A stretch of 64,000 nucleotides of DNA from Bacteroidia bacterium (GTDB lineage: Bacteria; Bacteroidota; Bacteroidia; B-17B0; Aurantibacillaceae): positions 372,001 through 436,000 of the forward strand of contig JAEUTP010000008.1 of NCBI GenBank assembly GCA_016787705.1. The letters run 5' to 3'. Under the pieces are notes generated by a model that made no database searches, was not told the DNA's origin, and was given only the letters and a program-made list of their open reading frames with translations. The position numbers were made by a program, and so were the translations under genes. Below, one piece after another: positions 27,409-30,971 of the stretch (position 1 is the first letter of the stretch; each line of letters begins with the position of its first letter).

Positions 27409-28389
27409 GTGAAGGTAAGTAAAGAATTTAAAATAGGACTTGTAGTAGTTTGTGCAATTGCTGCTTTCATTTGGGGCATTAATTTTTTAAAAGGCTCCAA
27501 TATTTTTTCACACAAGTATTATTTATATGCCGTTTATCCAAAGATCGATAATCTAATTCCCGCTAATCCATTATTAATTAACGGCTTTAAAATTGGCCAG
27601 GTAAATGAAATTTCGTTGATACAAAAAAGTGGAAAGACACAGGTGCTTGTTAAATTTTTATTGACTGAAGATGTTAAGATCCCAAAAAACTCCATTGCAA
27701 AAGCAATCAGTTCTGATCTTTTAGGAACAAAAGCTGTTGAAGTTATTTACAGTAACGAAACAGGCATGGTTGAAAGTGGTGATACATTAATTGCCGCATC
27801 GGAAGAAGGCTTTAAGGAATCATTAGATAAACGCATTGCACCTATACAGGCAAAAGCAGAAAACCTGATCAGTAGTATGGATAGTGTAATGACGGTTGTA
27901 AGTTTGATCTTAAATACAAAAACACGCGACAATCTTGAAAAATCGTTTGAAAGTGTTCGCAAAGCCATTTTAACTTTAGAACAAACAGCTTATAAATTAG
28001 ATGATCTTGTTGGATCGGAAAAAGTAAAGATCTCAAGCGTGCTTTCCAATTTAAACCAAATCACCTCTAACCTTAGTAAAAATGGACAAAAGATTGACGC
28101 CATAATTAATAATGTTAGCAGCATGACGGATAGTTTGGCAAAAGCACAATTAAAAGACGCTATTGCCAACGCCGATAAATCCATGAAAGAACTAAATGTG
28201 ATGCTTGCCAAGATTAATGAAGGACAAGGAACTGCGGGTAAATTATTAAAGAACGATTCGTTATATAACAACTTAAATAAATCTTCTGAAGACTTAGATA
28301 AATTATTAAAAGACCTTCGCTTAAATCCTGAACGTTACATACACTTCTCGGTTTTTGGAAGAAAGTCACGCAAACCAGTTAATCCTTAA
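27409..28389 (+). CDS. MlaD-like MCE-domain lipid transport protein
   Basis: 326 residues, GTG start. One N-terminal membrane anchor (residues ~8-25, KIGLVVVCAIAAFIWGINFL) precedes an MCE domain (~36-115, YAVYPKIDNLIPANPLLING and GFKIGQVNEISL) and a long helical C-terminal region typical of MlaD/Mce proteins, ending near KSRKPVNP. MCE proteins form a hexameric ring in the periplasm that carries phospholipids between the membranes. No MlaE permease or MlaF ATPase is in this window, so partners must be encoded elsewhere. The Fe-S gene starts 10 bases after the stop. Confidence 0.88.
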   Translation: MKVSKEFKIGLVVVCAIAAFIWGINFLKGSNIFSHKYYLYAVYPKIDNLIPANPLLINGFKIGQVNEISLIQKSGKTQVLVKFLLTEDVKIPKNSIAKAISSDLLGTKAVEVIYSNETGMVESGDTLIAASEEGFKESLDKRIAPIQAKAENLISSMDSVMTVVSLILNTKTRDNLEKSFESVRKAILTLEQTAYKLDDLVGSEKVKISSVLSNLNQITSNLSKNGQKIDAIINNVSSMTDSLAKAQLKDAIANADKSMKELNVMLAKINEGQGTAGKLLKNDSLYNNLNKSSEDLDKLLKDLRLNPERYIHFSVFGRKSRKPVNP

Positions 28390-28399
28390 GAGAACAAAT

Positions 28400-29725
28400 A
28401 TGATAAGCTCGATCATCTTCGCTTTACTTTTATTGGGGGCATCTGCATATTTTACTATCAATGTAAGAAACATCCGCAGAAATATTCTTTTAGGAAAAGA
28501 TATTCCGCTGGCAGATAATAAAGGTGAACGGTTAAAGACAATGTTACTTGTTGCTTTAGGTCAACAAAAAATGTTCTCGCGCCCTATCCCGGCCATCCTG
28601 CATTTATTTTTATACACTGCATTTATTATCACGCAAATAGAATTGATAGAAATTATCGTTGATGGTATTAGTGGCAGTCATCGTATTTTTAGAGAATCGC
28701 TAGGCGGTTTATATACTTTTGCGATAAGCTTTATTGAAATACTTTCGGTATTAGCCTTTATTGGTACTATTGCTTTTTTAGCAAGAAGAAATTTATTAAA
28801 AGTACCACGTCTCGTGATGAATGAATTGAATGGCTGGCCAAAATTAGACGCCAATTTTATTTTATTGGGCGAGTTAACATTGATCTGTTTTATTTTTATG
28901 ATGAATGGTGCTGATGAAGTTTTATATTCAAAAGGGATATCGCACGCTACCAATTTAAATGATGGTTCATTAGGCTTATCTATAAGCAAGCATATAGGCC
29001 CCTTATTATTTGGCAGCATGTCTGATAACGGTTTGCACCTTGTTGAACGCATTGGTTGGTGGGGGCATATTTTAATTGTATTTGGTTTTTTAAATTACTT
29101 ACCCTTCTCAAAACACTTACACATTGTTTTAGGATTTCCGAACACCTACTTCTCTAACTTAAAACCAAAAGGCGAATTCACAACGCTTGACGCTGTGACG
29201 GATGTTGTGGCTCCTAATTTTGATCCGGCTTATGTAGCAAAAACAGATCCTAATAATCCTGTACGCTTTGGTGTTAAAGATGTACAAGATCTTACCTGGA
29301 AAAATTTAATGGATGCCTACAGCTGCACCGAGTGTGGTAGATGTACCTCGTCTTGCCCGCAAAATATTACAGGCAAAGCATTATCGCCGCGTAAAATTAT
29401 GATGGATACACGCGACAGGTTAGAAGAAGTTGGAAAAAATATTGATAAGAATAAAGGTACGTTCGTAGATGATGGAAAATCATTAATTGGCGATTATATT
29501 AAGCATGAAGAGATCTGGGCATGTAATACTTGCAATGCTTGTGTTCAGGAATGTCCGGTAAATATTGATCCGTTAGCGATTATTGTAGAGATAAGAAGAT
29601 ATTTAGTGATGGAAGAAAGCAATACACGTCCTGAATTAAATAACATGTTTAGCAATATTGAGAATAATGGTGCACCTTGGCAATTTAGCCAGGCAGATCG
29701 CGCTAATTGGGTAAACGAACAGTAG
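28400..29725 (+). CDS. HdrC-like membrane Fe-S protein
   Basis: 441 residues from the ATG at 28400; the frame extends to 28355 but that would overlap the MlaD gene by 35 bases. The N-terminal ~250 residues have about five membrane segments (NarI/DsrM-like cytochrome b fold), followed by two ferredoxin-type 4Fe-4S sites: C309, C312, C315, C319 (CTECGRCTSSCP) and C375, C378, C381, C385 (CNTCNACVQECP). It should carry electrons between a membrane quinone pool and a soluble partner. Its expected HdrB-type partner is two genes downstream; the four-helix-bundle gene lies between them. Confidence 0.88.
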   Translation: MISSIIFALLLLGASAYFTINVRNIRRNILLGKDIPLADNKGERLKTMLLVALGQQKMFSRPIPAILHLFLYTAFIITQIELIEIIVDGISGSHRIFRESLGGLYTFAISFIEILSVLAFIGTIAFLARRNLLKVPRLVMNELNGWPKLDANFILLGELTLICFIFMMNGADEVLYSKGISHATNLNDGSLGLSISKHIGPLLFGSMSDNGLHLVERIGWWGHILIVFGFLNYLPFSKHLHIVLGFPNTYFSNLKPKGEFTTLDAVTDVVAPNFDPAYVAKTDPNNPVRFGVKDVQDLTWKNLMDAYSCTECGRCTSSCPQNITGKALSPRKIMMDTRDRLEEVGKNIDKNKGTFVDDGKSLIGDYIKHEEIWACNTCNACVQECPVNIDPLAIIVEIRRYLVMEESNTRPELNNMFSNIENNGAPWQFSQADRANWVNEQ

Positions 29726-30168
29726 GCAGTATTGAGTTAGCAGTCGGCAGAGTAAAAAGTATAAAGAAAAAATGAGTAGTCAGGGATATAAAGATCTAAT
29801 AGTTTACAAAAAAGCGTATGCCGCTGCTATGGAAATTTTTAAGGAATCCAAAGGTTTTCCAAAAGAGGAAATTTATTCTCTTACAGATCAAATCAGAAGA
29901 TCTTCTCGTTCAGTATGTGCAAATATTGCAGAAGGGTATAGAAAAAGAATTTACCCAAAACACTTCGTTTCAAAATTAAGTGATTCAGATGGCGAATGTG
30001 GAGAAACAATGGTTCACTTAGATTTTGCAAAATATTGCGGTTATCTTTCAGAACAAAAACACAAATTAATAACAGAAGAATATTTACAAGTAGGTAAAAT
30101 GTTAGGAAGTATGATGAATTCACCGGAAAAATTTTCGGTTTCAAAACTGCCAACTGCAACTGCTGACT
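29726..30168. repeat. Imperfect inverted repeat flanking the four-helix-bundle gene
   Basis: The left arm (29726-29750) contains GCAGT and AGCAGTCGGCAG; the right arm (30145-30168) reads on the opposite strand as AGTCAGCAGTTGCAGT followed by TGGCAGTT, giving the same GCAGT units in inverted order. The right arm overlaps the last codons of the gene. The pattern suggests that gene and arms move or were inserted as a unit. It is degenerate, and no second copy is in the window. Confidence 0.45.
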
Positions 30169-30170
30169 AA
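29772..30170 (+). CDS. Four-helix-bundle protein (S23/IVS type)
   Basis: 132 residues with the family start YKDLIVYKKAYAAAMEIFKE, the RRSSRSVCANIAEGYRKR core and CGETMVHLDFA, matching the four-helix-bundle family first known from intervening sequences (IVS) in 23S rRNA genes. Its biochemical role is unclear. It lies between the two Fe-S genes of an otherwise tight operon and is flanked by the inverted arms described separately; its last codons (LPTATAD) are made from the right arm. The arrangement looks like a later insertion into the operon rather than a native member. Confidence 0.85.
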   Translation: MSSQGYKDLIVYKKAYAAAMEIFKESKGFPKEEIYSLTDQIRRSSRSVCANIAEGYRKRIYPKHFVSKLSDSDGECGETMVHLDFAKYCGYLSEQKHKLITEEYLQVGKMLGSMMNSPEKFSVSKLPTATAD

Positions 30171-30182
30171 AAAACTATTTAT

Positions 30183-30971
30183 ATGTCTACAATAAAAGTT
30201 CCAACAATGGCCGAAATGATAGCTGCAGGAGAAACTCCCGAAATTTTATTTTGGGTAGGTTGCAGCGGTAGTTTTGATGATCGCGCAAAAAAAATAACAA
30301 AAGCCATTGTTCGTATTTTAAATCATGTAAATATTAAGTTTGCGATTTTAGGTTCAGAAGAAGGTTGTACCGGCGATCCTGCAAAACGTGCCGGAAACGA
30401 ATTTTTATACCAAATGCAGGCCATGCAAAACATAACTGTTATGAATGGTTACAATGTAAAAAAAATTGTTACGGGCTGCCCGCATTGCTTTAATACCATT
30501 AAAAATGAATATCCTGCTTTGGGCGGAAATTATGAAGTAGTTCATCACACACAATTAGTACAGGAATTAATTGACCAGGGAAAATTAAAAGTGCAGGGCG
30601 GAGAATTTAAAGGCAAGAAAATTGTTTTTCACGACCCTTGTTATTTAGGAAGAGCCAATGATGTTTATGAAGCGCCGCGAAATGTTATTGAAAAACTGGA
30701 CGTTGAATTAGCGGAAATGAAACGCAGTAAAGCAAAAGGCTTATGCTGTGGTGCAGGCGGCGCGCAAATGTTTAAAGAAGCCGAAAAAGGCACAAAAGAG
30801 GTAAATACCGAACGTGCAGAAGAGGCCTTAGCACTAAACCCGGATGTAATTGCAGTTGGCTGTCCGTTTTGTAATACCATGATGACAGATGGCGTAAAAC
30901 ATTTTAATAAAGAAGATAAAACAAAAGTATTAGATGTTGCTGAACTAATTGCAAATGCCAATGACCTTTAA
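30183..30971 (+). CDS. HdrB-like CCG-domain Fe-S protein
   Basis: 262 residues, soluble. Two cysteine-rich (CCG) modules are present: an N-terminal set with GCSGSFDDRA and GSEEGCTGDPA, CPHCFNTIKNEYP, and a C-terminal set with HDPCYLGR, GLCCGAGGAQMF and VGCPFCNTMM. Such domains bind special 4Fe-4S clusters and work with HdrC-like proteins. Its natural partner is the membrane Fe-S protein ending at 29725; the four-helix-bundle gene separates them. The TPR lipoprotein gene overlaps the stop by 11 bases, so transcription is likely continuous. The overall reaction (for example acyl-CoA or lactate-linked electron transfer) is not determined. Confidence 0.9.
   Translation: MSTIKVPTMAEMIAAGETPEILFWVGCSGSFDDRAKKITKAIVRILNHVNIKFAILGSEEGCTGDPAKRAGNEFLYQMQAMQNITVMNGYNVKKIVTGCPHCFNTIKNEYPALGGNYEVVHHTQLVQELIDQGKLKVQGGEFKGKKIVFHDPCYLGRANDVYEAPRNVIEKLDVELAEMKRSKAKGLCCGAGGAQMFKEAEKGTKEVNTERAEEALALNPDVIAVGCPFCNTMMTDGVKHFNKEDKTKVLDVAELIANANDL

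Follow-up and report, generated by a model that had tools for sequence, protein, structure and literature searches.

S23 proteins are common and structures of them have been solved, and to our knowledge no function has been assigned to them. Nor do we know of a mechanism of spread for the IVS elements of rRNA, which have been recognised for decades.

The IVS in the 23S rRNA of Coxiella is excised by RNase III and carries tandem heptamers (GACAGAT), varying in number between strains, in front of an S23 ORF which is reported to be decaying; the S23 protein of Xanthomonas forms a pentameric ring (PMC4990558). Heptamers also characterize two other systems comparable to the units described here. 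The P6b stem of the Nostoc tRNA-Leu intron consists of degenerate 7-nt repeats, in which alternative words maintain the same structure, but it lies within a group I intron and is without an S23 gene (PMC4476775). The TAACTGA heptamers of Beggiatoaceae, Cyanobacteria and Bacteroidetes form intergenic arrays near gene starts in distant phyla, but these are direct, not inverted round a gene, and S23 is not mentioned with them (PMC4679880). The literature searched, outside which most subscription papers lie, contained nothing relevant on S23 or GxxExxY genes flanked by inverted repeats or behaving as mobile units.

The window, i.e. the whole analysed stretch of 64,000 nt from a member of the Bacteroidia, contains an operon in which an S23/IVS-type gene had been described in a preliminary way as splitting an HdrC-like/HdrB-like pair. 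Profile matches substantiate this: the ORF between the two genes matches PF05635 (112.3 bits, cut-off 33.8, E 1.6e-32) and TIGR02436 (105.2 bits, cut-off 24), and solved relatives of its product are 2gsc and 2rld. The features of the locus are:

28355–29725, plus strand: gene for an HdrC-like membrane/4Fe-4S dicluster protein (Pfam Fer4 domains), the upstream neighbour
29720–30167, plus strand: the whole inserted unit of left arm, S23 gene and right arm, 448 bp, delimited against the empty junctions L065, L066 and L067
about 29720–29752, plus strand: left arm, a degenerate GCAGTNG heptamer array (CAGTAGGCAGTATTGAGTTAGCAGTCGGCAGAG); period 7 is general in S23 arms
29772–30170, plus strand: gene for the S23/four-helix-bundle protein, 132 aa (PF05635, TIGR02436)
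about 30140–30171, minus strand: right arm, the left-arm word inverted (reverse complement TTAGTCAGCAGTTGCAGTTGGCAGTTTTGAA)
30183–30971, plus strand: gene for an HdrB-like CCG-domain protein (PF02754, E 2.6e-31), the downstream neighbour

The inverted flanking arms noticed initially do exist and have the fuller extents given here. The stop codon TAG of the HdrC-like gene (29723–29725) falls within the left arm and, as had been proposed, the right arm supplies the last S23 codons: it encodes the residues LPTATAD and abuts the S23 stop. Two inverted matches connect the arms, 29720–29735 with 30141–30156 (14 of 16 positions complementary) and 29732–29744 with 30159–30171 (85%). Taken by themselves the window arms are only weakly distinguished from chance. 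The arm score was reached in 150 of 5000 trials with shuffled flanks (p about 0.03) and by 99 of 3175 other window positions of the same spacing, and the predicted RNA duplex of -25.3 kcal/mol was reached by 24 of 1000 shuffles. The case is therefore built on the family-wide comparison. The window's own genome contains three S23 genes, all with inverted arms when judged by eye and each with a different word. Solo GCAGT arrays also occur in this genome, and a one-mismatch GCAGTTGGCTGT match at 30852–30863, within the HdrB-like coding sequence, is probably due to chance.

With the rRNA IVS of Coxiella and Leptospira the unit shares an S23-family ORF, complementary flanks, sporadic presence and heptamers upstream of the ORF, and also its size, 428 nt in the IVS (PMC4990558) compared to 448 nt here. 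Of the properties of an IVS, the window unit itself shows complementary flanks around the ORF, weak for the window alone, and sporadic presence at a fixed site. It is not a 23S rRNA IVS proper: IVS elements reside in rRNA, whereas this unit is located between protein genes of an operon and has heptamer arms on both sides. Furthermore, its S23 type is under purifying selection (see below), as opposed to the decaying ORF of the Coxiella IVS (PMC4990558). That the Coxiella IVS and the S23 units have heptamers in common had not been anticipated and strongly supports a kinship. No rRNA match was found in 16 distant S23 loci, which had few or no arms or were near contig ends. A distant relative of the window protein is Avd of the diversity-generating retroelements (DGR). 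A classification as DGR Avd was rejected, as the scores (DivGenRetAVD 30.2 bits with a cut-off of 80, bAvd 34 bits) remain below curated cut-offs and no reverse transcriptase gene is adjacent; those of genome G000 are on contig C24 and at C23:204099, about 200 kb away.

We read the HdrC-HdrB junction in 30 relatives, many of them draft genomes. Empty sites, for which a search had been suggested, are present in the three closest relatives (L065, L066 and L067; HdrB 95% identical): the S23 gene and both arms are jointly absent and only 12–18 nt separate the two genes. Related S23 genes with GCAGT-type arms occupy the junction in L074, L077 and L084 (75–77% identical), and L104 of genome G033 has, by sequence, a related S23 (86%) there. 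Other congeners have something different at this position, either a second kind of S23 flanked by TTGATGATTGATTG-type arms (L070) or a GxxExxY protein whose arms are of the CACTAAG type (L069, L079 and L080, the last matching TIGR04256). In L071 there is only a hairpin with a tetraloop, the right edge of which is that of the filled alleles. Together with right-arm traces at the junction of L075, this hairpin may be a remnant left in relatives which partly lost the unit. The empty allele reads GAA AGT TAA AAA ACT, the filled one GAA CAG TAG ... GAC TAA AAA ACT; HdrC ends with TAA in the former and with a TAG from the left arm in the latter, and from this comparison S23 appears to end at the TAA that used to terminate HdrC.

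On the HdrC-HdrB tree the window-type S23 requires 4 changes, among which repeated gain, transfer and loss are not told apart. The S23 copies at the junction are 65–86% identical and their silent sites are near saturation between congeners; the unit must hence be old at this site, without a recent jump. Where computable, dN/dS amounts to 0.03–0.09, pointing to purifying selection, and the window-type S23 is thus a functional, old protein. One could also assume that an ancestral operon gene was lost in the relatives and not inserted in the lineage of the window. This would agree with the related S23 copies of old divergence at the site in G000, G007, G010, G017 and G033 (by sequence) and with the remnant-like junctions of L071 and L075. 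However, the tree needs its 4 changes, the three closest relatives are cleanly empty, and the different cassettes at one junction would stay unexplained, so that we consider this alternative possible but not probable. A target-site duplication was not evident by eye at HdrC-HdrB, the one junction examined closely. Near-identical copies of the unit within a genome were not seen, and recent movement is for this reason undocumented. The initial idea of an IVS-like mobile unit in a protein operon is thus supported in part, by IVS anatomy, empty sites and recurrence of the same word elsewhere; the near-saturated silent sites speak against a recent jump.

The flanks of S23 genes were compared at 113 loci of relatives, with automatically picked start codons and a threshold score of 12 or more, which was our choice. 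Inverted arms were found at 80 of them (71%), compared to direct ones at 13 and 3.2% for mismatched partners; about 30% of the loci have no clear arms at this threshold. Among ParE genes of the same genomes none of 27 had inverted arms, and among all genes in an 800-kb stretch of a complete congener it was 33 of 630 (5%), the same as for direct arms. Within this stretch, inverted word-array pairs are located mostly at S23 genes, GxxExxY genes and gene-less hairpin clusters. Arms are also present at 34 of 38 S23 loci from other groups, that is, non-Bacteroidota bacteria and one archaeon (Cyanobacteriota, Desulfobacterota, Nitrospirota, Chloroflexota, Acidobacteriota, Spirochaetota, Planctomycetota, Dojkabacteria, an ANME-1 archaeon and others; the 80 other-group loci were those nearest a consensus S23).

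The arms have a clear internal structure. At lags 7 and 14 their self-match reaches 0.60 and 0.56, respectively, compared to about 0.25 at other lags; lag 7 is best in 98 of 127 and lag 8 in 20, and the median arm has 31 nt. When S23 genes at different sites, defined by the lack of a homologous neighbour on the same side, are compared, the word is common to 97.7% of the pairs with a relative score of 0.7 or more (n=43), but only to about 3% of the dissimilar pairs, the pairs not being mutually independent. The observed word-protein agreement was 0.476, compared to a permutation maximum of 0.183. Conversely, dissimilar S23 genes at the same site share a word in 0 of 45 pairs. Between phyla the word is common to 84% of 55 pairs with a relative score of 0.6 or more and to 0–1% below 0.5, these pairs likewise depending on one another. 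Over all pairs, the similarity of proteins and that of words gave a null Spearman correlation (0.036); the two are linked by a threshold effect inside subfamilies.

In 15 sampled cross-phylum pairs fourfold-degenerate sites are 0.35 identical, compared to 0.27 at saturation. With silent sites this close to saturation the word itself is probably constrained, which would argue for recognition of the arms by the S23 protein. Judged from these sequence comparisons, the arm word follows the S23 subfamily and not the site, also across phyla, beyond what neutral drift would leave, with recent transfer as an alternative source of word sharing that may contribute to the agreement. The preliminary description had recommended looking for other copies with the same flanks, and related S23 genes at other sites do carry the same word. 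Its reservation that the arms might be unrelated in other copies applies between S23 subfamilies only; within a subfamily the word is shared.

Hence, outside rRNA an S23 gene is generally flanked by heptamer arms specific to its subfamily, and gene and arms behave as one unit, being jointly absent and leaving gene-less remnants. It is highly improbable that heptamer arrays are just common intergenic slippage products with the gene passively among them. The marginal score of the window arms and the solo GCAGT arrays would be compatible with such an association, but not the family-wide inversion bias, controls of 0–5% and the word-protein agreement.

A second gene family, GxxExxY/PDDEXK_3 (PF13366), is found in inverted-arm units as well, even at HdrC-HdrB (see above). 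It differs from S23 in that it is a nuclease-fold family, has words mostly of period 8–9 and is less strict in orientation. Inverted arms flank 73% of the GxxExxY genes, compared to 13% in the mismatched control, which is higher here because GxxExxY words are shared between loci.

As to placement, S23 and the gene upstream of it share a strand in 132 of 134 armed S23 loci with near neighbours (genes at large 72%, p 2e-14), S23 is in sense in all 120 loci with co-directional neighbours, and in 95 of 113 the left arm overlaps the upstream stop codon or lies within 15 nt of it. Such a sense placement fits a unit living on read-through transcription, and either insertion at the RNA level or selection could have produced it. 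Compared to shuffles, the arms somewhat more often contain stops in all frames (0.33 versus 0.15 left, 0.33 versus 0.07 right). As the excess is similar in antisense arms, the idea that period-7 arms provide stop-codon insurance was discarded.

Presence and absence of units was seen at a second junction, nuoJ-nuoK. Six genomes have an S23 with ACAATTT arms there and three a different S23 whose arms are of the AGATTTAAG type; L365 has a decayed S23 with the arms remaining, and many other genomes have no insert. The neighbouring nuoI-nuoJ spacer (L354–L383) contains gene-less heptamer hairpins, the words of which differ between congeners and in some genomes match that of the S23 unit beyond the next gene. 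Of 22 such spacers, 12 have a folding z below -2. Several further arrangements were observed. A tandem inverted-array cluster of CACAAAG/CTTTGTG without a recognised gene (L342, G001:C1 about 570970–571550) is located about 8 kb from a GxxExxY gene, which is followed by similar hairpins. In the same genome two different S23 genes are in tandem, less than 1 kb apart (L046/L157, G001:C1:546376–547569). The S23 domain occurs in long frames of 492, 250 and 242 aa in L161 (G044:C51:8487–8807), L139 and L167, respectively, which are possibly fusions or read-through frames. Genome G037 holds 226 exact GGCAGTNGGCAGT copies in many tandem arrays (backward control 0), and a close relative of the window S23 was not found in it (best E 8e-8).

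Two alternatives bear on these gene-less words. In the first, the unit is a mobile element at the DNA level, the arms serving as terminal inverted repeats for a transposase that acts in trans, in a MITE-like or REPIN/IS200-like manner, and the gene-less hairpins being non-autonomous copies. Presence and absence at orthologous junctions, the same unit type at unrelated sites and the sharing of words by gene-less hairpins and arrays could be explained in this way. It is nevertheless unlikely, as the subfamilies differ in arm sequence and hence offer no single transposase site, orientation is exclusively sense, HdrC-HdrB has no clear target-site duplication and near-identical copies were not seen. 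In the second, S23 proteins are RNA-binding regulators of the host, arms and gene-less hairpins are their putative binding sites in cis or trans, and the gene is not selfish. Purifying selection, a word-protein agreement maintained across phyla and the gene-less hairpins between nuoI and nuoJ are in line with this, as is the more frequent occurrence of the GGCAGTNGGCAGT word in genomes having the window-type S23 (Fisher p 0.02). But presence per site is patchy with many empty junctions, and the word is also abundant without a cognate S23 (226 copies in G037, 39 in G048), so that we regard a host regulatory system as rather doubtful. Due to these strong exceptions word abundance, although significant, was not taken to indicate a trans action of S23.

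We therefore favour, with some confidence, an IVS-like hairpin cassette of mRNA, made of a promoterless S23 gene between inverted degenerate-word arrays, as the reading suggested by the sequences. The unit is always sited in sense, after the stop codon of one operon gene and before the ribosome-binding region of the gene that follows. As in rRNA IVS, the arms may pair in the polycistronic transcript into a stem from which the S23 ORF is looped out, and cleavage of the RNase III type could free the segment, leaving the neighbouring genes unharmed. More weakly suggested, the ring-shaped S23 protein might bind its own heptamer array, which would explain the joint evolution of word and protein; the gene-less hairpins would then have arisen by deletion or serve as trans targets. 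A resident reverse transcriptase is not required for spread: mobilisation by one was rejected, PF00078 being absent from 42 of 60 relatives, S23-rich ones included. Against the cassette speaks the loop of about 400 nt, crossed by ribosomes, over which the stem would need to close, and since the S23 stop is often within the right arm (49 of 127), cleavage there could damage the S23 message.

More tentatively, and with the doubts outweighing, these units might constitute a widespread, undescribed class of protein-coding hairpin cassettes in bacterial and some archaeal operons. In each, a four-helix-bundle ring protein would recognise the heptamer word of its own arms, the two co-evolving like lock and key. 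The IVS elements would then be the branch residing in rRNA and the GxxExxY nuclease units a parallel one. The puzzles of S23 function and of IVS spread would thereby share one testable frame, in which the likely ligand of the protein can be read from the adjacent DNA. If this is true, many of the intergenic repeats of short words in Bacteroidota and other phyla would be parts or remnants of S23 units. The recurrence of the gene-plus-arms unit in operons of many phyla suggests a widespread insertable RNA-hairpin cassette, apparently not described before.
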